Position numbers and translations under genes: made by a program
In this document: piece by piece, positions 1 through 59,593 of the stretch
How the letters are laid out: every line of letters starts with the position of its first letter
How positions within the stretch are numbered: the stretch's first letter is position 1
The notes under the pieces: model-generated
Told to the model about the DNA's origin: nothing
Database searches by the model: none
The model's input: the letters and a program-made list of their open reading frames with translations, nothing else
From: a virus
Length of the DNA: 64,000 bases
Reading direction: 5' to 3' (one strand)
Virus record (IMG/VR): IMGVR_UViG_3300036715_002161
Location: 62,001 to 126,000 of that record

Positions 1-834
1 AGTATCAATATTTGATCCGGGAAGGGTATAACCGCTCTGCCAGGAGTCTTGACTTACTAATTCTCTCAAGTATTTAAAATCTGTATGCCTATAAATACAC
101 CCAGAGTCTAACCCGATGTCAATTCTGTGGTAATCAATATCTTTGGCATAGTAGATATTTTGTACCACAGAAAAAGCCGTGGCCGCAACCAAAACATTAA
201 TAGCCATAGTCTGATCCAGGTCAGCGCAGCTGGCCGTAGAAGTAGTCTCAACCATCTGATTAAAATAGTCTACATCCATATACAGAGAAGGTACTCTAAC
301 ACTAAAGGGGACACTCTTATTACTTATAAGTTTTTCCAAGATTTCTCCAGAGGCTTGACATGCACTTGGACTACTAGTCCCCATTACTTTTACCTGGCCA
401 TAATTATCTCCATTACCAGTATCTATGATTATGCCTACCACTGAATTGGCGGAAATCCATGCCTGAATATCTTTCCTAGAGGATACCGAGTCTACACATA
501 GTATGTGTAATGCTACTTCACCATACTCCATAGTATTAGACTGTGAATCTGTAATTGAGGTAGTCTCTGCCTTAATATTAATATCATAGGCTTTGGCATA
601 CCGAGCAGCTAATACCTCTGACTTATATTTACCGACGTCAGAAGTCACAAAATTTTGTCTACTTAAATTTTTAGCCTCTACAGTGTCAAAATCAAAAAGG
701 ACAATCTCCGGATTAATTACATGTGGCAGACTTTTAAGAAACTGAGCCACCAATGGAACCAGTCTAGAACCAGTTCCACCACATCCATGTATGTATACTT
801 TGTTAGGAAATAGGCTTGAAGTGTTATATATCAT
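1..834 (-). CDS. ThiF/E1-like activating enzyme, PRTRC type (3' end beyond window)
   Basis: The frame is open from an ATG at 834 to the window edge, 278 codons. An AGGAT ribosome site lies upstream and the gap to the JAB gene is 7 nt. The N-terminus is a Rossmann-type adenylation fold: HGCGGTGSR (residues 16-24) is the nucleotide loop, VLFDFDTVEAKNLSRQNF (45-62) carries the acidic and Arg/Asn residues of ThiF/MoeB/E1 enzymes, and Lys69/Lys71 follow. Cys203 in TASCADLDQ sits where E1-like proteins place the catalytic cysteine. Known of the family: these enzymes adenylate the C-terminal glycine of a ubiquitin-like protein and form a thioester. Inferred: it activates the 65-residue ubiquitin-like protein at the head of this operon and passes it to the E2-like protein. 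The resemblance to PRTRC ThiF proteins rests on my recall of the family and on the neighbours. The C-terminus is not seen. Confidence 0.88.
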   Translation of the reverse strand, partial: MIYNTSSLFPNKVYIHGCGGTGSRLVPLVAQFLKSLPHVINPEIVLFDFDTVEAKNLSRQNFVTSDVGKYKSEVLAARYAKAYDINIKAETTSITDSQSNTMEYGEVALHILCVDSVSSRKDIQAWISANSVVGIIIDTGNGDNYGQVKVMGTSSPSACQASGEILEKLISNKSVPFSVRVPSLYMDVDYFNQMVETTSTASCADLDQTMAINVLVAATAFSVVQNIYYAKDIDYHRIDIGLDSGCIYRHTDFKYLRELVSQDSWQSGYTLPGSNIDT

Positions 835-841
835 TTCTTAT

Positions 842-1837
842 TTATCCTATAAATCCGTTGGTCGCATAGTGTCTTCTGCCATTTTCTGTCAGATTCTGAT
901 AGGCTTCATTAATAATAAGTTTTAGATTTTCATCATTGTGATGATTGTCCATTACAAAATCAAGGGCATCTCCGATTATATATTCATAGTCATCATCCCC
1001 TAGTCCTACGGGATCAATGTCTTCCAGTCGTCTACGTCTACCACCATTATCAAAATCTACGGGAGGGATAATATAATCATCCTCTTGAAAGCCATACAGC
1101 TTAGAGCTTTCCTGGTCATAAAAAGGAGTGATCTGTCCGTATTTGGGGGGATAATTATGTGGCTCCGGAACAGAAATTTGATCTAGCCAGGTAGGATCGA
1201 TTTGTACTATGTCCAAAGAGGGTATCTCAAAGATCTCATCAACTTGTACTGGATAGTTAAGTTCACGGAAGTTGAACCGGAACACCATGGTAGGCTCCTT
1301 GTCCAGATTACCAATTACTCCTGAATAATAGATACAGCCTTTATCATTATTATTGTCTGTACCACTAAAGAAGCTACTCATTGTATTATGGGAGTGCATG
1401 TCTAAGACAATAATACTGCCTGATGGTAGAGTGCTTGCATCATACGAAAAAGATACTGCCGCCTTTGATACCGTCTGTTTCGGGACCGAGACATGATACC
1501 CCTTTTCTTTTGTCCATAAGACAAAACAGTGGGCTTCATATTCAGCCTTCTTATGAGTAATTACTTCTTTAAAAAACTTGGTGATTTGATGGAGAATAGA
1601 CTTTGGGATTTTGCCATCTGGTAAGAAGTTCAGTTCCTCTTTTAATTTGTCTCCGTCACCAACTGCTTCTGCCGGTAGGCTTGGGATTTTCAGGCGGACA
1701 CTACGACCACCTACCAGGTTTTGATGTTTTAGAAACCCATCAGAAGTCGTTACATAGATGGTTGAATAGGATCCGACTACATCTTTGAATTCATCTTCTG
1801 AACAAACACAGGAGACATATGGTACAAGAATTTTCAT
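842..1837 (-). CDS. JAB/JAMM domain protein (PRTRC system protein A-like)
   Basis: 331 residues. The JAMM zinc-peptidase signature HxH-x7-S-x2-D is complete: LDMHSHNTMSSFFSGTD gives His148, His150, Ser158 and Asp161, and Glu101 in AEYEAHCFVLW is the likely catalytic acid. The wording around it (EAHCFVLW, then the HSH block followed by a D/N-rich stretch) is what I recall from PRTRC system protein A. Family knowledge: JAB enzymes remove ubiquitin-like proteins from targets or trim their precursors. The gene lies between the E2-like and E1-like genes with gaps of 13 and 7 nt, so one transcript is likely. The C-terminal third (about 225-331) is acidic and arginine-rich, has no recognised fold, and may be a phage-specific extension. 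Confidence 0.87.
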   Translation of the reverse strand: MKILVPYVSCVCSEDEFKDVVGSYSTIYVTTSDGFLKHQNLVGGRSVRLKIPSLPAEAVGDGDKLKEELNFLPDGKIPKSILHQITKFFKEVITHKKAEYEAHCFVLWTKEKGYHVSVPKQTVSKAAVSFSYDASTLPSGSIIVLDMHSHNTMSSFFSGTDNNNDKGCIYYSGVIGNLDKEPTMVFRFNFRELNYPVQVDEIFEIPSLDIVQIDPTWLDQISVPEPHNYPPKYGQITPFYDQESSKLYGFQEDDYIIPPVDFDNGGRRRRLEDIDPVGLGDDDYEYIIGDALDFVMDNHHNDENLKLIINEAYQNLTENGRRHYATNGFIG

Positions 1838-1850
1838 TTTTAAGTCCTCG

Positions 1851-2618
1851 TCATGCTAATTGGTGTAAAGTTGGCAATATTTCACTCAGGTCATTCGCCA
1901 CAGGAGTTGGAGCTAGATGTGGACTATCCCGTAGCATATAGTACGGAAAGGTTTCGGCATCTTCTAGGATTTTATACCAGGAGGAAACATTGCCTCTGAA
2001 GGTAGTATCATTAATGGATAGGTCATCGTTGAAGGGAGTATCAAACAACATGGTGTAATAATAGTGAAGACCTTTTAAGTTTTTGGAAAATACTCTAGGA
2101 GTAGTATTGCCTCCGTAGCACATATGACCATCATTATATATATTAGAAAATGGGAGTATCCAAATATGTTTTAGATGATCTTTTTCTGTAGGTACTTGTT
2201 CTAGCAGCTCTACTGACTCGGCTCCAAGATCAGTACAAAAATATCTGATATCCTTTAGGTAATATGAGTTATCTGGTTTAATATCTAAGGTAAAGGATAA
2301 TATAATGTTTGGAGCCGCAACTTTATAAATGGTCTCGGGGTCGTAGCTCTTTTTGTATTTAAGGTCTTGTTTTTTTGCAGGGAAGTAGGTACTTAATTTT
2401 ATACCTTGAGTTGTCCTGGAAAATCGTATACAGTTTGGTGGTAGACTAAAAGCTTCTTCAGAATTTGGTTGAGCTACTTCCTTAGATACTGTTTTTAAAA
2501 AGTCATTAATAGAAATTATCTTGCTACTGGTACTGAGACTATTACCGGTGTCCACTTCGACACAATCTGTATACATTTTTATATTTATATATGGCTCGCT
2601 AATATTTTCTTCAGTCAT
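1851..2618 (-). CDS. E2-like conjugating protein (PRTRC system protein B-like)
   Basis: 255 residues; the start overlaps the 74-residue gene upstream. The core resembles PRTRC protein B / prokaryotic E2 family D: LPPNCIRFSRTTQGIKLSTY (59-78), a beta-rich middle, then LPFSNIYNDGHMCYGG (155-170). In this family the ...NV..DG.VC.G block holds the presumed thioester cysteine, here Cys167. No RING-like zinc module is present. Neighbours: JAB and E1-like genes directly downstream. Inferred role: accepts the ubiquitin-like protein from the E1-like enzyme and transfers it to a target. The target cannot be told from the sequence. The assignment rests on one strong motif plus context, with little similarity elsewhere. 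Confidence 0.75.
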   Translation of the reverse strand: MTEENISEPYINIKMYTDCVEVDTGNSLSTSSKIISINDFLKTVSKEVAQPNSEEAFSLPPNCIRFSRTTQGIKLSTYFPAKKQDLKYKKSYDPETIYKVAAPNIILSFTLDIKPDNSYYLKDIRYFCTDLGAESVELLEQVPTEKDHLKHIWILPFSNIYNDGHMCYGGNTTPRVFSKNLKGLHYYYTMLFDTPFNDDLSINDTTFRGNVSSWYKILEDAETFPYYMLRDSPHLAPTPVANDLSEILPTLHQLA

Positions 2619-2839
2619 ACAAAATCCCCTTCTATGAAGATGTTAACCATTTTTAGGCGGTTATTAATAACGCCTAGATTACTTCTACCTATTGTAAAAT
2701 CCCCAATTTCAAAGTCTATTAGTTGATTTAGTATTTCAAGGGAGGTTATCGTTTGTGATAAGTTTTCCATCAAGGCCAGACCTTTAGAGTATAGATCTTC
2801 TGAATCAACAAATCCCTTCTTTAGGTTACCTATATTCAT
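2615..2839 (-). CDS. small hypothetical protein in PRTRC-type operon
   Basis: 74 residues, translationally coupled on both sides: its ATG overlaps the stop of the 206-residue gene (ATGA) and its stop overlaps the start of the E2-like gene. Predicted mostly helical, with no cysteines, no signal and no motif I recognise. The coupling argues that it is a real member of the operon, possibly a small subunit or adaptor. Confidence 0.6.
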   Translation of the reverse strand: MNIGNLKKGFVDSEDLYSKGLALMENLSQTITSLEILNQLIDFEIGDFTIGRSNLGVINNRLKMVNIFIEGDFV

Positions 2840-3456
2840 TGTGTATCTACCGGGTTATAACGCATTCTAATTCTTAGGATATTTTGCATAGCTTTTATAA
2901 CCTCTGGAAAATACCACACATATCTATATGGGGTGAATGAACGGTTAGGGTTTAATGGTTTCATCAGTACTGATATACTCTGAGTATTAACATACTCGGC
3001 ATTTACAATACTTGCTGTTAGCGTTATCCCCAAAGTAGTAGATGCTTTTACCAACTTAGCAAGATACCTAACCATAGTCTCAGATCCTTTGGGCGACATT
3101 CTACCTAAAAACTGTATCTTTAGTGGTACTCCCCGATTAATATTAGGAGGAGAAATAATTACATTAGGCCTATGTGGGAAAGGTATATAAGTAAAAGCCC
3201 CTTGGTACGACTTTAAGGCCTGTGACCCAGCTATTTTAAGTAGGGAATAAAATGGATCACTCCACCCCGATAATGTATACCTTTGGTCTGCCGAGAACCC
3301 ATAGAAGGATTTAAAGTTTCTAGTCACAGCCTTTAATTCCAGTAGTCTACTAAAGGTAAATTTAACAAGAGACTCCGATATAAGTGCTGATTGTAATCTA
3401 CTTGAAAGGACATCTACTGCCCGTTTTCTTTTAAGTGGTATTGTTTCGTATATCAA
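2836..3456 (-). CDS. hypothetical protein in PRTRC-type operon
   Basis: 206 residues, basic (RIRMRY, KRKRA), without transmembrane segments or recognised motifs. The start is a TTG at 3456, supported by AGGGG seven bases upstream; no ATG is available nearby. It is the first gene after the terminator hairpin at 3484-3509, so it is expressed either by read-through of that terminator or from an unseen promoter. The downstream coupling (ATGA) puts it in one translation unit with the E2, JAB and E1 genes. It does not look like PRTRC D, E or F as I remember them. Confidence 0.6.
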   Translation of the reverse strand: MIYETIPLKRKRAVDVLSSRLQSALISESLVKFTFSRLLELKAVTRNFKSFYGFSADQRYTLSGWSDPFYSLLKIAGSQALKSYQGAFTYIPFPHRPNVIISPPNINRGVPLKIQFLGRMSPKGSETMVRYLAKLVKASTTLGITLTASIVNAEYVNTQSISVLMKPLNPNRSFTPYRYVWYFPEVIKAMQNILRIRMRYNPVDTQ

Positions 3457-3474
3457 TTCTTAACCCCTGGAAAA

Positions 3475-3509
3475 CTAAAAAAAACATTGACCTGGCCAGA
3501 GGTCAATGT
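3475..3509 (-). terminator. intrinsic terminator after ubiquitin-like gene
   Basis: A perfect 10-bp stem (3484-3493 with 3500-3509, loop 3494-3499) is followed on the minus strand by a run of T. It sits 23 nt after the ubiquitin-like gene and 19 nt before the next start, so it should end or attenuate transcription between them. Confidence 0.9.
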
Positions 3510-3531
3510 CCTTAAACTAAAAAAGTTTTTT

Positions 3532-3729
3532 TTAGCCTTTGGTACCCGTTTTTGCGCGGAAGGTGAATTCCACATTACCATCGGAGTCAGTCTCTTGACT
3601 TGCATCCATAGAGGCCATGCCGGGCACACCACCCTTCAGGTTGCGGACGATGTCGTCTACAGTATAGTGATCACCTGGAAGAGAATATGATTCGCCGGTC
3701 GTTGCAATGTTTACGGTAGTTGTTGCCAT
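3532..3729 (-). CDS. ubiquitin-like beta-grasp protein (PRTRC system protein C-like)
   Basis: 65 residues. The N-terminal strands, a short helix (VDDIVRNLKG) and the ending VEFTFRAKTGTKG fit a small ubiquitin-like protein. The C-terminal Y/F-TFR...GTKG ending is the hallmark I recall for PRTRC protein C, where the final glycine is the residue an E1 would adenylate. An AGGAA ribosome site precedes the ATG. It is first in the operon, behind a TTAGATA/GTATAAG promoter at 3794-3822, and is followed at once by a strong terminator, so it is probably made in excess of the enzymes, as expected for a modifier consumed by conjugation. There is no C-terminal extension to trim, so the JAB enzyme would act on conjugates instead of a precursor. 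Confidence 0.8.
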   Translation of the reverse strand: MATTTVNIATTGESYSLPGDHYTVDDIVRNLKGGVPGMASMDASQETDSDGNVEFTFRAKTGTKG

Positions 3730-3793
3730 GTTTTTAATTTCCTATAGGGTTAAGTAAAAAAGAAGAAAGACTAAATATCTTTCCTCTAAATTG

Positions 3794-3822
3794 CTTATAC
3801 CATGAAATTCAAAAATATCTAA
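3794..3822 (-). promoter_or_regulatory. phage promoter of TTAGATA-N15-GTATAAG class
   Basis: On the minus strand TTAGATA (3822-3816), 15 nt, then GTATAAG (3800-3794). The expected start is near 3787, giving a leader of about 57 nt to the ubiquitin-like gene. This is one of six exact copies of the bipartite element in the window. Confidence 0.75.
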
Positions 3823-3836
3823 TTCAAAAGGCCTAT

Positions 3837-3845
3837 GTTAAAATA
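3837..3845 (+). promoter_or_regulatory. GTTAAAATA late-gene element
   Basis: GTTAAAATA 4 nt before the ATG at 3850. The same 9-mer lies just before five other late start codons at almost the same distance, which helps to choose 3850 as the terminase start. It may be a late -10 element or an A-rich translation enhancer. Confidence 0.6.
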
Positions 3846-3849
3846 CGGC

Positions 3850-5460
3850 ATGACACAAAAGAAAGTGAAGTTAACTACTTCGCAGCTGGGCAGGGCAATA
3901 TTGTCCTTTAAGGGGAAACCCTTTTCCCTGGACGGCTATAAACCATTTACTGAAATATATGACTTTGACCCACCTCTGATGACGGTCAAGTGTTCCAGAC
4001 AGGTTGGTAAGACTCTATCCATTGGGGCCATCAAAGCCCTTAAGTGTATATCAAGGCCTTATTTCACCTCTCTGTATATTGCCCCATTGTCAGTCCAGGC
4101 CTCACGGTTTTCAACTACTTACCTAGACCCTTTCCTGAATTCCCCTCTGGTCAAGAAATACTATAGGGATACCAGTTCGAAGAAAAATGTCTTTGAAAAG
4201 ACATTGAATAATGGTTCTATAATGTTCTTGTCTTATGCCGAGTCCGAGGTAGACGCCGACCGAGTTCGAGGGGTGGCCGGAGATGCCCTTTCCGTAGATG
4301 AAGTTCAAGACGTCCAAGCCGAAGCCTTGCCTATCCTATATGAATCTTTGTCGGCCTCAGACTATGCCCTTAAGAGGCACTATGGTACTCCTAAGTCAGA
4401 ACAGAATACCTTAGAGGTACTGTTCAAAAAGGGGTCGGGTAGTGAGTGGTGTGTTAAATGTAATCATTGTAATCACTGGAACATTCCCTGGGACCATGAC
4501 AATTGTGTAGCCATCTGTAGTGGACTAGTAGGACCTATTTGTATTAAATGCTCTAACCTATTAGACGTAACCTCCGGAGGATGGATCTCGGCCAGACCAG
4601 ACCAAAACAAAGTACATGTGTCTATGCATATACCAAGGTTTATGCTGGAGTCTAGGGCCAACCCTAAAAAGTGGGGGGAACTACAACATGCCATAACAGA
4701 GTATTCTACCAGCAAGCTAGACAATGAAGTCTTTGGTATTGCCAGTGGCAGTGCTGGCCGTATTCTTTCTCAGAAAGAGGCGATGGAGTGCTGTAACCCA
4801 GAAGTCTCTGAATTTGATACTTGCTGGGCGATGGACTCTCGTGGTATAGTTGCAATTGCAGTAGGGGTAGACTGGTCTTTGGTAGGTAGTAAAGTTAGCC
4901 ATACGACAATTACTGTTGCCGGGTTTGATAGTACCGGTAAGCTGTACGTAATGTATGCCAAAAGAATAGATGAAAAAGATGTACAGAAACAGGTCCGGGA
5001 AGTAATTGACATTTATCGTAGATTTAACGCCCAGATTATTTGTAGCGACCGTGGAGTAGGTGTTATGCAGGGGCAATTAATTTCTCAGATTATAGGTTCT
5101 GACAAAGCTTATATGATACAATTAGGGGCAGCCAAAGTTCCATTGACCCTGGACCGTGCTGGCGGTTATATGTTCGCCGACAGGACAATGGCTATGGACT
5201 CCGTTATATTTAAGGCCAAGTTAGGCCGTTCTAAGTTGGAGACTCCAAGCTGGAATCTGATGTCTTCACCTTTTTGGTCAGATTGGCTTAATTGTTATGA
5301 TGAAGAAACCAGGTCAGGAAGAAAAGTTTATAGAAAGAATGACGGAACGACCGACGACCTGTTAATGTCAACGGCCTTCGCCAATATTGGATTTCAGATA
5401 ATGCAGGGCGACTTCACTTATCTGGATCAGCAAGACCCACATCAACTAGGAGATTTTTAA
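3850..5460 (+). CDS. terL: terminase large subunit
   Basis: 536 residues from the ATG at 3850. An in-frame ATG at 3835 exists, but the GTTAAAATA element falls inside that longer form. ATPase part: Walker A-like SRQVGKT (Lys54), Walker B ALSVDEVQD (Asp150/Glu151). A zinc-ribbon insert follows, CVKCNHC near 201-207 and CIKC near 231-234. RNase H-fold nuclease: VGVDWS (Asp341), IICSDRG, and NDGTTDD with the last acidic cluster. Role: packages DNA into the capsid through the portal and makes the packaging cuts. No small terminase, portal or capsid gene is in the window; these should lie elsewhere. The stop overlaps the next start (TAATG). Confidence 0.95.
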   Translation: MTQKKVKLTTSQLGRAILSFKGKPFSLDGYKPFTEIYDFDPPLMTVKCSRQVGKTLSIGAIKALKCISRPYFTSLYIAPLSVQASRFSTTYLDPFLNSPLVKKYYRDTSSKKNVFEKTLNNGSIMFLSYAESEVDADRVRGVAGDALSVDEVQDVQAEALPILYESLSASDYALKRHYGTPKSEQNTLEVLFKKGSGSEWCVKCNHCNHWNIPWDHDNCVAICSGLVGPICIKCSNLLDVTSGGWISARPDQNKVHVSMHIPRFMLESRANPKKWGELQHAITEYSTSKLDNEVFGIASGSAGRILSQKEAMECCNPEVSEFDTCWAMDSRGIVAIAVGVDWSLVGSKVSHTTITVAGFDSTGKLYVMYAKRIDEKDVQKQVREVIDIYRRFNAQIICSDRGVGVMQGQLISQIIGSDKAYMIQLGAAKVPLTLDRAGGYMFADRTMAMDSVIFKAKLGRSKLETPSWNLMSSPFWSDWLNCYDEETRSGRKVYRKNDGTTDDLLMSTAFANIGFQIMQGDFTYLDQQDPHQLGDF

Positions 5461-35896: not shown

Positions 35897-36365
35897 TTAA
35901 GTATCCTAAAAATGCTAAACATATAGCATCGGCTTCATGATCTGATTTAAGTTTTTTTCCATAAATCAATTCAGCAGCGGCCAATGAAAACTCTTTGTTG
36001 AAGGAATTGCCTGGATTAGTAAAACCATGATCTCTAACCAGTATTTTGCACAGGGTTGATTTCCAATCTATGGCCCTTACCATTTGTACTGGTATTTCTT
36101 TAGACTCAAAGTAGAATACCAAGGCCCCTATCATCATAAGTATATACTCAGATGCTCCTGAATTTACCCCACTATATCCTACATATCTCTCCATTACAAC
36201 CGAAGAAATTGAGTAGTCTTGGAGCAGGGTTTCCAGGCCGGAAATAAAACCAGTAATACCTTGGTCCCTTGGTTTGCCACTATACCTAAGGACAACCTCT
36301 CCCTCTGGACTGATTATTCCTAGTCCAAAAGAAGCCCAACCTGGATCAATACCAAGGGCGAACAT
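35862..36365 (-). CDS. RuvC-like Holliday junction resolvase
   Basis: 167 residues of RNase H fold: FALGIDPGWASFGLG with Asp7, VVMERYVGYSG with Glu59 or so, and the C-terminal SDHEADAICLAFLG that supplies the last acidic residues. Family role: cuts branched DNA during recombination, replication and packaging. It overlaps the HD-Pnk-like gene by 20 nt. Confidence 0.82.
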   Translation of the reverse strand: MFALGIDPGWASFGLGIISPEGEVVLRYSGKPRDQGITGFISGLETLLQDYSISSVVMERYVGYSGVNSGASEYILMMIGALVFYFESKEIPVQMVRAIDWKSTLCKILVRDHGFTNPGNSFNKEFSLAAAELIYGKKLKSDHEADAICLAFLGYLNEQRNDFLSTS

Positions 36366-37356
36366 ACATTATCTCATCAAACTCCCCAAGACTTGGTTGC
36401 TGAGTTTTGAAGTACTGACTTCTGGCCACTTCAAAACTAATTGGTTTTTCAGGCCTTTTCAATAGATTGGCAGCAATATTTTCAAGACTATTTTGAAAGA
36501 CAACGGCCACAGTACGAAGCCCTGCCTCATTAGCCACTGTCAAAAACTCCTTGCGGGACTTGATTGAAACATGGCAGTTGTCTACAAATCGGACCGGGTC
36601 TTCCTGCTTGACAAACTTATTAAACTCCTTTAATACTTTACCACTAAAGCCAGAGTCTTCTGTGGAATGTTTCCAGGCTTCTTGGTAATTTCCAGGATAC
36701 CAGTCCAGTCTAAGGGTGTCCATACTAAAGATGGGCCCATCCCTTTGACCCAACCAGGTACTCTTGCCGGACCCCGAACATCCAATCATGAATAAAATTT
36801 CATTTAATTTTATATCTGGTTCTGGCAAGGTCACAGGATTTTTAAGCCAAAACTCTGCCAAAAAAATCTTTTCCTTATGATTATCTGAGATTCTTCCTCG
36901 GCAGTCAGCCATAATTACCTTGGAGTATAAATCCCAGTCAATAGTGGCCTGTGCCCACTCAGGCTTGACCTTATAGTATAGGTGATTTTCAATCAGCCAT
37001 ATGACTTTACCCAGGTCAAACCCGAAAGGAATATTATCCCTATTGGTAATCAGCCAGTCTTCGGCCAATCGGGCAGAAATAAGCTCATGGCCATAAAATA
37101 CAGACCTACCTTCTTTATCTCTCTTGGCTTCCGGTTTGCCAGCATCATGGAAGGCCACGGCCAAAAAGCCTGAGGCCAGGTCAGTATTAGAAAGATCGAT
37201 GTCGGACCTAAGGTATTCCTGTACTACCATGTCAGTATGAACTAGCACTGACTCCTCCCTATGCCATTCAGAGTCTTCCCGACACAGACCCATTATACGA
37301 AACAATGGATCCGGCCTCAGAACTTCTTGATAGAAGTTCAGTAGGGTTTCTTTCAT
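36346..37356 (-). CDS. HD-Pnk-like RNA end-healing enzyme (HD phosphohydrolase + kinase)
   Basis: 336 residues. N-terminal HD domain: His40 in SVLVHTD, His70-Asp71 in VAFHDAGKPEAKRD, His90 in YGHE, His125, and Asp151 in MADCRGR. C-terminal P-loop kinase: IGCSGSGKSTWL (Lys198), then DTLRLD and the RSRKEF-like segment of polynucleotide kinases. The same fusion, HD-Pnk, is known from bacteria, where HD removes 2',3'-cyclic or 3' phosphate ends and the kinase adds a 5' phosphate. Together with the two RNA ligases of this window it makes a full RNA repair set. Overlaps (ATGA) the NAMPT gene upstream. Confidence 0.78.
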   Translation of the reverse strand: MKETLLNFYQEVLRPDPLFRIMGLCREDSEWHREESVLVHTDMVVQEYLRSDIDLSNTDLASGFLAVAFHDAGKPEAKRDKEGRSVFYGHELISARLAEDWLITNRDNIPFGFDLGKVIWLIENHLYYKVKPEWAQATIDWDLYSKVIMADCRGRISDNHKEKIFLAEFWLKNPVTLPEPDIKLNEILFMIGCSGSGKSTWLGQRDGPIFSMDTLRLDWYPGNYQEAWKHSTEDSGFSGKVLKEFNKFVKQEDPVRFVDNCHVSIKSRKEFLTVANEAGLRTVAVVFQNSLENIAANLLKRPEKPISFEVARSQYFKTQQPSLGEFDEIMYVRPWY

Positions 37357-39005
37357 AGGTTGTTTACCCTTTCTCTAATTTCAGTAATAGTTTGAAACTT
37401 GGTGATTTCACCATCCTTAAAGACAGTTTCTAGACAACCAGTTTTTTCCTGTTCTGGAGTTTGTTGATCGTATAGGACATATTTTCCATTTTCCTTTTCA
37501 ACTCTTAAAAGACCTTTGGCTGATTTCTTGGTGCCTGAATCAGTGGCTGGATCTTTTACAAGTTCTACGGATTGACCTTGGATAACTCCATGGGTTGCTT
37601 TCATTGCAAATCCCAGAGAGTCTCTGGTTACATAGTTATAGGTGTATGACCCAATACCAAAAACCACGTTATCACTACAAAACCCTTTTTCCTCCAAACG
37701 CCTAAAGATTTCCTCGGCCCGTGCCAATGTAATTGAATCACCATAGATCAAACCAATATGGCTATCCAACATCTTATACCCAGTGTCAGTTACAACTCCT
37801 CCGAAGATTTCCCAAAGACATTCTACAGCTCCTTTTAGCTCTGGGGTAAGAGTGGTTATTTCTAAGTTAACAGGATTAATATCATCATAGAGATTAACCC
37901 TATATAAGTTACCTTTCCAATGGAAATAAGTAAGGCCATCGGACCACATTGGGTTTACACCTGTTTCTAATTGAATCTTATCTAAATATCTCAAGGCCTC
38001 ATTCATGGTATTCCCGACCGCATCAATTATTTTTACCCCACAGATAATTTCTACGGGATCGCCAGAGTCAGGTCTTAAGACGGTTTTAGACTGGCCAATA
38101 CCATTTGCGGGTCTGGCCAAAATCTCCTCCTTAAGCTCAGGGAGATACTCGGTAATAACCTTCCAAAAATCCCAGGTGTCAGAAACGATAGATACAATGC
38201 CTGTAGGATAGACTTCACTAATGAGTCTACGGAAGGTTTCAATTTCTGTTTCCTTGCTACCCATACACATTACAGAATGTTCCGTCGCAGGGACACTTCC
38301 CCCAAGGAAAGTATCCAAACCGTTGTAGTAGTCTTCTAGGTAGTCTAAGGATGGTACGGTATCAGTTCCTGAGAAACAGGTCAAATGGGCAGCTCCACTC
38401 TTGGCTGCATCCTGCATTGAACTCATACCTCTCATTGAGAAGTCGTGGCATTGCCATCCTTTGAAACCAGGGTGGCCCCCAGTCAGTGCAGAATATTTGT
38501 CAACCAGTTTTTTATAACCAAGGGCTGTGGTGGCCGAGGTAATTGGCTTCCACAATTCTACAGAAAACAAAGTTTCCAGATAGGTAACCAACCAGGCAAA
38601 GTGTGGATCGGTATTGGTCACAGTAAAGACCGGAACTTTAAAGGGAACCATGCTTCCCTCTGGAAGGGCCTTAATTTCCAAAGGTAAGTATCCAAGTTCC
38701 CACAAGGCTTTGATATGATCGGTTCCGACCAGTCCGGGCCCAAGGGCTTTGTCCATTCTAGCCTTATATCGGTCAAGAATGTTTTCAATTGGTTTCCTGA
38801 AGAAATTATCTTTCCACAGGTCAATTAGAGTTGATTGCATGAACCCTTGAAGGCCGAAGAACAATACTCCTTCTACACCCTCTTGTAGAAAGTAGCTACC
38901 ACTCCTGGGAGTGAAGTTGGAATAAATCTTTTCAGTTCCTTTCGGGTACTGGCTGATGTGGCCGGACTTATAGAAGTCGATTTGATGTTCTGGGCGAATA
39001 TTCAT
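37353..39005 (-). CDS. nicotinamide phosphoribosyltransferase-like (Namat, NARP1 pathway)
   Basis: 550 residues, about 60 longer than human NAMPT. Family blocks: IDFYKSGHISQYPKGTEKIY and SNFTPRSG at the start, FSMRGMSSMQDAAKSGAAHL (substrate loop), FSGTDTVPS, VPATEHSVMCMGS, VSDTWDFWKVIT, LRPDSGDPVEI, YGDSITLARAEEI and GIGSYTYNYVTRD. These carry the His and Asp residues of the family. Paired with the PRPP synthetase-like gene it matches the NARP1 pathway, in which the partner makes ADPR-pyrophosphate and this enzyme joins it to nicotinamide, giving NAD+ back. That specific role is inferred from gene pairing; ordinary NMN synthesis is the alternative. Confidence 0.9.
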   Translation of the reverse strand: MNIRPEHQIDFYKSGHISQYPKGTEKIYSNFTPRSGSYFLQEGVEGVLFFGLQGFMQSTLIDLWKDNFFRKPIENILDRYKARMDKALGPGLVGTDHIKALWELGYLPLEIKALPEGSMVPFKVPVFTVTNTDPHFAWLVTYLETLFSVELWKPITSATTALGYKKLVDKYSALTGGHPGFKGWQCHDFSMRGMSSMQDAAKSGAAHLTCFSGTDTVPSLDYLEDYYNGLDTFLGGSVPATEHSVMCMGSKETEIETFRRLISEVYPTGIVSIVSDTWDFWKVITEYLPELKEEILARPANGIGQSKTVLRPDSGDPVEIICGVKIIDAVGNTMNEALRYLDKIQLETGVNPMWSDGLTYFHWKGNLYRVNLYDDINPVNLEITTLTPELKGAVECLWEIFGGVVTDTGYKMLDSHIGLIYGDSITLARAEEIFRRLEEKGFCSDNVVFGIGSYTYNYVTRDSLGFAMKATHGVIQGQSVELVKDPATDSGTKKSAKGLLRVEKENGKYVLYDQQTPEQEKTGCLETVFKDGEITKFQTITEIRERVNNL

Positions 39006-39805
39006 TTAGTATAAACCTTAACGTTGGGGTTACAAAATACAGTATCATTGACCATCTTAAATATAAATATATCTTTGTAATACAAGAGTAAGTCAAAAAA
39101 TCCTTTAGAAAAGATACCATGTGTTACATACAGGAAAAGATGTACGGTACTACCAGTCTGTCTTATGGCCTTGGCCAACTCTATAAATGTCTTGCCACCG
39201 TCACATATGTCGTCGACAACTAATATTGACCGATATTTATAGGCCTCCAACTCTTTATTGTTTACCTCTATACCGACAATATCCCCATTGTCTGCATCTC
39301 TGATCTTGGTGGCGGCAGTAAACGGTAAGTTAAGGGACATGGCCAGTGTTCTAGTTTTTTCTAAAGCTCCATGGTCTGGGGCCATCAGTATTGACTTATC
39401 TAACACTGGCCGTGGGATTGCCACTAAGGCAGCAATAAATTGGGGGATTACGGAGCTACGTTCTAAAAGACCTGAGACTTCACTATGAGGGTCTACAAGG
39501 CTGACATGGTAAAACTTGGCAGCATTTATAAGGTCACAGAAAACTTTTAGAGAAAATGCTTCTCCAGGATAACATGCACGGTCTTGTCTACCATAGGGTA
39601 AATATTCCAGACTAAGGCTTACCTCTATTACTCCTGCCCGATCCAGGGCGTCTTTGACCAGTAATAGGGTCATTAAGTCATCAGAGGACCGGATGTCATA
39701 ATCCAGACAGATTTTCTCAGGTAAGGACTCAACCAGTCGTATCTGGATTTCCCCGGCTGAGAATTTAATAGGATAGCCAGGAGCCATCAGTTCAGATATT
39801 TTCAT
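39002..39805 (-). CDS. ribose-phosphate pyrophosphokinase-like (Adps, NARP1 pathway)
   Basis: 267 residues, shorter than cellular PRPP synthetases (about 310-320). Motifs: EYLPYGRQDRAC (Arg73-Arg76 region), DPHSEV (105-110), APDHGALEK (142-150) and the PRPP loop ILVVDDICDGGKTF (194-207). Overlaps the NAMPT gene by 4 nt (ATGA). In NARP1 phages the homologue phosphorylates ADP-ribose (the product of NAD+-destroying defences) instead of ribose 5-phosphate. Which substrate is used here cannot be read from the sequence. Confidence 0.88.
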   Translation of the reverse strand: MKISELMAPGYPIKFSAGEIQIRLVESLPEKICLDYDIRSSDDLMTLLLVKDALDRAGVIEVSLSLEYLPYGRQDRACYPGEAFSLKVFCDLINAAKFYHVSLVDPHSEVSGLLERSSVIPQFIAALVAIPRPVLDKSILMAPDHGALEKTRTLAMSLNLPFTAATKIRDADNGDIVGIEVNNKELEAYKYRSILVVDDICDGGKTFIELAKAIRQTGSTVHLFLYVTHGIFSKGFFDLLLYYKDIFIFKMVNDTVFCNPNVKVYTK

Positions 39806-58822: not shown

Positions 58823-59593
58823 ATGGATTTAAGTAAATACTATTCCGAAATCTCCAGATACAAGTCAATAGGGGCAGAAGAGGAGGTAGCCTTGTTTAAA
58901 ACGTTTCAAGCTACTACAACTACAGAAAAAGAAAAAACCAAGATTAAGGATCGTATAATCTCCTCTAACCTAAGGTTTGCCTTTAAGGAGGCCAAGAAGT
59001 TTTCAAAGAATGATCCTATATTATTTGAGGATTTGATCTGTGCCGCCAACGAAGGATTATTGGTAGGTTTTGAAAAGTTCAATCCGGCCAATGGTGTTAG
59101 GTATTTATCATATGCAGGTTGGTGGGTAAAGCAAAGGATATTAGATGAGATGTCAAAAAAGAGAATAGTTTCTTTACCTAAATCAAAGCAGCAGCTGGCC
59201 ACTAGAATTCAAAAAGCCAAAGATAGAGACGAATCCCTATCCTTGGCCGATTTAGTAAAGGTCTTTCCAGAGGATAACCCCAAGGACATTAAGGAACTTT
59301 CCGATACTAGATACCTTACGTATTATATGGAGGACCTCAGTGATGATCTTCTAGAAATAGATCCAATAGGTGAACAAGTTCAAATTAACATTGATAATAA
59401 TAAGGTTTGGAAATCTGTCTCTGATCTACCCTCTCCGCACAGGGAAGTAATTGCCCAACTATTTGGGCTTGATGATGGGGTCGAGCAGTCGATTACAAAC
59501 ATATGTAAGTCAATGAAAGTTTCTAAGGAAACGGTACGACAGATTAAAGCGGAGGGCCTCGAAATGCTCACAAGAAAGCTGGGCCCTACTTAG
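58823..59593 (+). CDS. sigma-70 family RNA polymerase sigma factor
   Basis: 256 residues, the only plus-strand gene in 32954-64000. Regions: IISSNLRFAFKEAKKFSKND and FEDLICAANEGLLVGFEKFN (region 2.1-2.2), VRYLSYAGWWVKQRILDEMS (2.3-2.4), and DLPSPHREVIAQLFGLDDG with ICKSMKVSKETVRQIKAEGL (region 4, helix-turn-helix). An AGGAT ribosome site precedes the ATG. Family role: redirects host polymerase. It is a candidate reader of the TTAGATA/GTATAAG promoters on the same arm; that is inference. Confidence 0.88.
   Translation: MDLSKYYSEISRYKSIGAEEEVALFKTFQATTTTEKEKTKIKDRIISSNLRFAFKEAKKFSKNDPILFEDLICAANEGLLVGFEKFNPANGVRYLSYAGWWVKQRILDEMSKKRIVSLPKSKQQLATRIQKAKDRDESLSLADLVKVFPEDNPKDIKELSDTRYLTYYMEDLSDDLLEIDPIGEQVQINIDNNKVWKSVSDLPSPHREVIAQLFGLDDGVEQSITNICKSMKVSKETVRQIKAEGLEMLTRKLGPT

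Follow-up and report, generated by a model that had tools for sequence, protein, structure and literature searches.

In this study, we analysed a 64,000-nucleotide stretch of viral DNA (the window; C1:62001-126000 of the 138,036-bp virus record IMGVR_UViG_3300036715_002161) and found on its minus strand six head-to-tail frames, in the order UBL (ubiquitin-like protein), X, Y, E2, JAB and E1. We propose that these genes encode a complete, reversible system by which a phage conjugates and deconjugates a ubiquitin-like protein during infection, related to the PRTRC systems of plasmids and to the type 6d operons of Iyer and co-workers. Our probability for this reading is about 0.8, a figure that refers to the conjugation system itself and excludes its target. 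If it is correct, these parts suggest that infection by phages of this group involves protein tagging similar to that in cells. A preliminary description of the window had claimed a six-gene phage operon with an E1, an E2-like protein, a JAB peptidase, a ubiquitin-like protein and two unrecognised proteins; all six frames were found in their places on the minus strand, and the large terminase gene that adjoins them agrees with a phage origin. Coordinates are window positions unless they carry a prefix.

The three enzymes were assigned by family searches and by their catalytic residues. E1 matched ThiF in Pfam (8e-16) and, as its best NCBIfam family, PRTRC_ThiF (3.3e-24); JAB matched Prok-JAB (7e-8) and PRTRC_A (4.9e-19), and E2 matched Prok-E2_D (2.9e-6) and PRTRC_B (3.5e-4). 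The Pfam matches exceed the curated cut-offs, whereas the NCBIfam PRTRC matches fall below theirs (E1 against TIGR03736, 85.6 bits with a cut-off of 144.75; JAB against TIGR03735, 68.7 bits with a cut-off of 101.8; E2 against TIGR03737, 20 bits with a cut-off of 131). PRTRC_ThiF was matched by 16 out of 16 members of the E1 alignment, and Prok-E2_D by 11 out of 15 E2 relatives. Cys203 and the ATP-site residues of E1 were invariant in all 26 phage representatives, with a counterpart of Cys203 also present in three plasmid ThiF proteins, and Cys167 of E2 was likewise invariant in 26 out of 26. The JAMM residues of JAB (Glu101 and His148-Ser-His150-x7-Ser158-x2-Asp161) were all invariant in 13 out of 13 sequences; in a 26-row set at most one row deviated, at three positions, and this row probably represents a lineage with JAB split into two frames. 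The earlier calls of a ThiF-type E1 with Cys203, an E2-like protein with Cys167 and a JAB/JAMM peptidase are thus borne out by family match and conserved residues alike. The E1 frame, which runs past the window edge, closes 54 bases further on at C1:61947 and gives a protein of 295 amino acids (L002:17947-18834) that includes Cys203. Sequence searches of the PDB with E2, JAB and UBL gave no matches, and a profile search of genome contigs with the JAB alignment revealed no cellular relative by tblastn. Among the individual lineages, L115 has an E1 of 1046 amino acids, L090, L094 and L125 each encode JAB in two separate frames, and in the L124 genome a homing-endonuclease-like frame (L130:957-1502) separates JAB from E1.

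The proposal that the 65-residue UBL belongs to the PRTRC/ubiquitin family was supported by an indirect route. Searched alone, the protein had no match in Pfam or NCBIfam, and what speaks for the assignment are its relatives, a comparison of profiles and a fold model, which together outweigh the missing direct match. One of 14 UBL relatives matched PRTRC_C (TIGR03738; 0.0013) and three of the 14 matched Prok_Ub (best 0.011), while the UBL profile aligned with the plasmid PRTRC_C profile at 83% probability (E 9e-6) and with a wider PRTRC_C-like set at 95% (E 3e-8). An AlphaFold2 model built from 14 sequences (pLDDT, the per-residue confidence score, 87) shows the order strand-strand-helix-strand-strand with a flexible TGTKG tail, and on this model UBL has a ubiquitin-like beta-grasp fold. 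A fold search against the PDB returned nothing below E 1e-3 and therefore counts as no more than supportive; its best entries were mostly ubiquitin, UBX and protein G, all of them beta-grasp proteins. UBL orthologues occur in every fully visible locus, and in at least 24 terminase clusters they share both C-terminus and position. Given these orthologues, the PRTRC_C and Prok_Ub matches of the relatives and the match to the PRTRC_C profile, the short UBL frame goes beyond chance.

Some UBL genes consist of 2, 3 or 5 tandem copies, each ending in TGTKG, and some UBLs carry extra residues at the C-terminus. Vibrio phage D69 encodes a 263-residue protein with three UBL repeats, and the L124 genome a 368-residue protein with five repeats and one extra C-terminal residue. 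Tandem or extended proteins of this kind would therefore be precursors that require processing, and JAB is likely to be the peptidase that cuts them. The precursors also bear on whether E1 and UBL could instead be a pair for sulfur transfer or small-molecule synthesis, in the manner of ThiF/ThiS, MoeB/MoaD or MccB, with no protein conjugation. E1 does score with ThiF, MoeB and MccB, and JAB domains are present in some sulfur-transfer operons according to the available excerpts of Iyer et al. 2006 (PMC1779556); however, tandem precursors misfit a sulfur carrier, the Cys-bearing E2 is never missing, the operon showed no partner for sulfur transfer, and the family that fits the window E1 best is the one matched by every member of its alignment, PRTRC_ThiF. 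We regard the sulfur-transfer explanation as very unlikely.

The operon belongs to the core genes of a group of phages, among them cultured Salmonella and Vibrio phages. By tblastn, JAB and E2 were found in Salmonella phage Arash and in Vibrio phages D69, D181 and D148, whose terminases are also the best matches to the window terminase in the phage collection. In Arash all six genes stand next to the large terminase, their order unchanged; its UBL, at positions 180513-180713 on the minus strand of the record, is a 66-residue frame ending in TGTKG that is missed in GenBank (OQ632216 gp251c lies in another frame), and the annotated D69 E1 (OZ195729 VPHD69_0301) has a late start that drops the N-terminal nucleotide-binding part. 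Viral contigs searched with the JAB alignment yielded about 14 distinct phages with terminase and UBL-X-Y-E2-JAB-E1. With a terminase alignment, and hence without bias towards the module, a search of viral metagenome contigs produced 27 clusters of terminases at 90% identity. UBL adjoins terminase in 24 of these, together with all further module genes that the contig reaches; in two (L108 and L124) the module lies elsewhere in the genome, and the one remaining contig is too short. L108 and L124 had been considered as lineages lacking the module, which was rejected when the operon was located in both genomes. The distances of E1, JAB, E2 and UBL track those of terminase (Mantel r 0.81-0.89, 0 of 999 permutations). 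In an E1 tree, quickly made and with long branches, the module E1s form one clade (SH-aLRT 87) that is adjacent to, but separate from, most plasmid E1s (99). Ratios of nonsynonymous to synonymous substitution (dN/dS) were below 1 for the module genes wherever computable, mostly 0.06-0.4 compared with 0.02-0.08 for terminase, indicating that E1, E2, the deconjugase and the modifier are kept under purifying selection. These data leave little room for a plasmid PRTRC cassette recently captured as accessory cargo by a single phage. Although gene order and family matches are similar to those of the plasmid systems, the module E1s make up one clade that tracks terminase, more than 20 metagenome clusters as well as cultured Salmonella and Vibrio phages carry the module, and the PRTRC genes ParB, D, E and F are undetected; a recent capture is, in our view, extremely improbable.

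Searches for ParB (TIGR03734), PRTRC D (TIGR03739), E and F (TIGR03741 and TIGR03742) found none of the four in 11 phages (the window phage and ten relatives), while a control plasmid was positive for all of them. The operon is thus not a full PRTRC system, and the earlier remark that ParB was not seen is upheld; the PRTRC-type reading itself is sustained by E1, JAB, E2, UBL and the gene order. Like the PRTRC operons of plasmids and integrative elements (for example Paraburkholderia PPGU16_p2 and Sulfuricystis pSTJ1), the phage operon has C-, B-, A- and ThiF-like proteins, its order UBL-...-E2-JAB-E1 parallels C-F-B-A-ThiF, and the plasmid UBL also ends in KG. It differs from them in having no detectable ParB, D, E or F, in having X and Y, in UBLs that may be tandem, in the terminator after UBL and in the separate clade of its E1s. 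The type 6d operon, as given in the excerpts of PMC1779556, comprises UBL, JAB, E1, E2 and a rapidly diverging alpha-helical protein, and so resembles the phage operon both in the four enzyme and modifier types and in a fast-evolving, partly helical extra protein; those excerpts list type 6d from bacterial genomes and name no phage, and the phage operon adds Y and, often, tandem UBLs. Type 6e polyUbl proteins, described in the same excerpts, are alike in having two to three tandem UBL domains per protein, but the accompanying E2/RWD is inactive and E1 and JAB form a fusion, whereas the phage E2 keeps Cys167 and JAB and E1 are separate. Host ubiquitin-like immune pathways (Bub being putative) also combine UBL, E1, an E2-like protein and a deconjugating peptidase in one operon, and serve immunity, whereas the genes here are phage core genes. 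In PADLOC, E1 gave weak matches to BilD (4e-5) and to E1-E2 models, and JAB, E2 and UBL had no match among the Bil models. The lambda tail assembly pair TAPI/TAPK likewise combines a UBL and a JAB peptidase in a phage, close to the tail genes (PMC1779556, excerpts), but it has no E1 or E2, its UBL is fused to another domain, and it is no conjugation system. The broad hallmarks of prokaryotic UBL conjugation, namely a C-terminal glycine on UBL, an ATP site and cysteine in E1 and a cysteine in E2, are all present at the sequence level. PRTRC-like operons were also seen in more distant viral contigs (L040, L041, L042 and L045, up to 316 kb), with UBLs ending in GDKG or GNKG.

Only the positions of X and Y are conserved. 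X is predicted to be mostly helical, and a gene of 200-350 codons is kept at its place in 14 distinct loci; it had no family match, and its structure model (pLDDT 46) is unreliable and too poor for a fold search. That X might be a PRTRC_F homologue was rejected, there being no profile match, and it is a counterpart by position alone. Y, at a conserved position, has a conserved hydrophobic C-terminus, mostly F/Y-V, and no match in Pfam or NCBIfam. Kinship of X and Y with their counterparts in other viral PRTRC-like operons was likewise rejected, as no match was obtained.

A hairpin followed by a T run is present after UBL in 28 out of 28 loci, in every case at -15 kcal/mol or better, compared with 12 out of 84 shuffled sequences; terminator-like elements follow E2 in 4 out of 26 and JAB in 9 out of 24. 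Since this terminator would halt most transcription ahead of the enzyme genes, UBL is presumably produced in excess over the enzymes. The promoter-like motif TAGATA-N13..17-GGTATAA is found six times in the window, against 0.02 expected, and always on the minus strand; GGTATAA-type elements lie upstream of UBL in most relatives examined. The minus strand of the window also holds the genes for DNA polymerase and other metabolic proteins.

On this basis, a pathway can be outlined. UBL would be driven in excess from its own promoter, and the JAMM peptidase would cut tandem or extended precursors after TGTKG to free the C-terminal glycine. E1, judging from its family and invariant residues, would adenylate this glycine and carry UBL on Cys203; E2 would take UBL over on Cys167 and pass it to a target protein, forming lysine adducts. 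The JAMM peptidase may also strip UBL from its targets, and X, Y or both might, more tentatively, be fast-evolving adaptors or E3-like parts.

As for the target, our first guess, at slightly under even odds, falls on virion or assembly proteins of the phage itself. The operon sits between the structural genes and terminase, and GenBank labels the E1 and E2 of Arash as 'structural protein'; the same label is given to genes beyond the main structural block too, a spread that hints at virion mass spectrometry as its source. Host proteins are a rather unlikely target, and escape from a host UBL-based defence is a still less likely role. Taken more widely, a conflict with the host, in which host proteins are tagged with UBL for takeover or defences such as Bil are blunted by UBL and the JAMM peptidase, would change only the target and role of the system, and we hold it possible at somewhat less than an even chance. 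Bil-type defence, which puts a ubiquitin-like protein on components of the phage tail, has been described (literature cited by the available text of PMC12660748 and PMC13373217), the UBL promoter is shared with other minus-strand genes, and terminase evolves several times more slowly than the module proteins; the class of promoter and the rapid evolution would both point to a host-side role. Unlike typical patchy counter-defence genes, however, the module is found in every lineage with a visible locus, and E1 and E2 would be superfluous for merely removing a host modifier. A broader possibility, which we hold only tentatively and think doubtful, is that this group of phages with multi-subunit RNA polymerases depends on a polyubiquitin-like, reversible conjugation pathway of its own, whose E1 and E2 travel inside the virion; tagging of proteins would then belong to the phage life cycle, in assembly or in immediate takeover of the cell.

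Several points weigh against a phage conjugation system used in this way. The support for conjugation lies at the sequence level only, in catalytic parts, conserved residues, precursor forms, gene order and co-inheritance. UBL ends in KG rather than GG, and neither X nor Y could be shown to be homologous to a PRTRC component. The open-licence literature yielded no paper that accounts for the 'structural protein' label in Arash, which might also stem from contaminated virion preparations. Because the UBL promoter motif is shared with minus-strand genes including that for DNA polymerase, its class would argue against a purely late role of the operon.

In bacteria, conjugation of ubiquitin-like proteins has been encountered chiefly in host immunity, or else in plasmid cassettes whose purpose is unexplained. 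Arash, D69, D148 and D181 are tractable systems for asking what PRTRC-type pathways do, and tagging by a phage UBL may explain modified virion or host proteins missed by standard proteomics. Trypsin cleaves behind Lys64 of UBL and would leave a single Gly (+57.02 Da) on the target, equal in mass to carbamidomethyl. The excerpts of Iyer et al. 2006 (PMC1779556) give type 6d in bacteria and lambda TAPI/TAPK in phages, and no complete phage system. No description of a complete phage-encoded PRTRC/ubiquitin system was found in the open-licence literature, which does not cover subscription papers and preprints, and a 2021 review of jumbo phages makes no mention of JAB or PRTRC. As far as we found, this would be the first ubiquitin-like conjugation system described from bacteriophages that is both complete and conserved, and its precursors resemble polyubiquitin.

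The features of the locus are listed in Table 1. The X/Y and Y/E2 frames overlap by 4 bases each, consistent with coupling and in keeping with the earlier claim that the two unrecognised genes are coupled. The genes past E1, beyond position 1, are on the opposite strand, so the operon has no further genes there, and reading that sequence for more PRTRC genes gave none. The large terminase subunit is the divergent neighbour of the UBL end, and its best matches among phage records are Arash (45%) and Vibrio phages (37%).

Table 1. Features of the ubiquitin-like conjugation locus in the window
Feature	Position	Strand	Basis or remark
Promoter-like element TAGATA-N14-TGGTATAA	3795..3821	-	Upstream of UBL; motif repeated in window
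UBL, ubiquitin-like modifier, 65 aa, C-terminus TGTKG	3532..3729	-	Orthologues, AlphaFold2 model, PRTRC_C profile match
Intrinsic terminator (predicted), between UBL and X	3480..3513	-	Hairpin of -15.9 kcal/mol, then T run
X, 206 aa, TTG start	2836..3456	-	Position-conserved gene, no family match
Y, 74 aa	2615..2839	-	Position-conserved small gene, no family match
E2-like conjugating enzyme, 255 aa, Cys167	1851..2618	-	Prok-E2_D match
JAB/JAMM metallopeptidase, 331 aa	842..1837	-	Prok-JAB and PRTRC_A matches
E1 (ThiF type), GCGGTGSR, Cys203	1..834, past window edge	-	ThiF and PRTRC_ThiF matches
Terminase large subunit, phylogenetic anchor	3835..5460	+	phrog_675, 3.7e-55

Elsewhere in these genomes, a homologue of the beta subunit of multi-subunit-type RNA polymerase was present in all 11 module phages searched (G000:C1:1617-2684 in the window phage), and the Arash protein, of 1525 amino acids, joins beta to part of beta'. 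A minus-strand cluster at 36346-39805, with an AAA_33 protein (36346-37356), a NAMPT/NAPRTase-like protein (37353-39005) and a ribose-phosphate pyrophosphokinase-like protein (39002-39805), resembles in its predicted products a phage NAD+ reconstitution pathway. The record also contains a reverse transcriptase gene (RVT_1, 2.7e-27; L002:9149-10189, that is C1:53149-54189, minus strand), and a phage sigma-70-like factor is encoded at 58823-59593 on the plus strand of the window.

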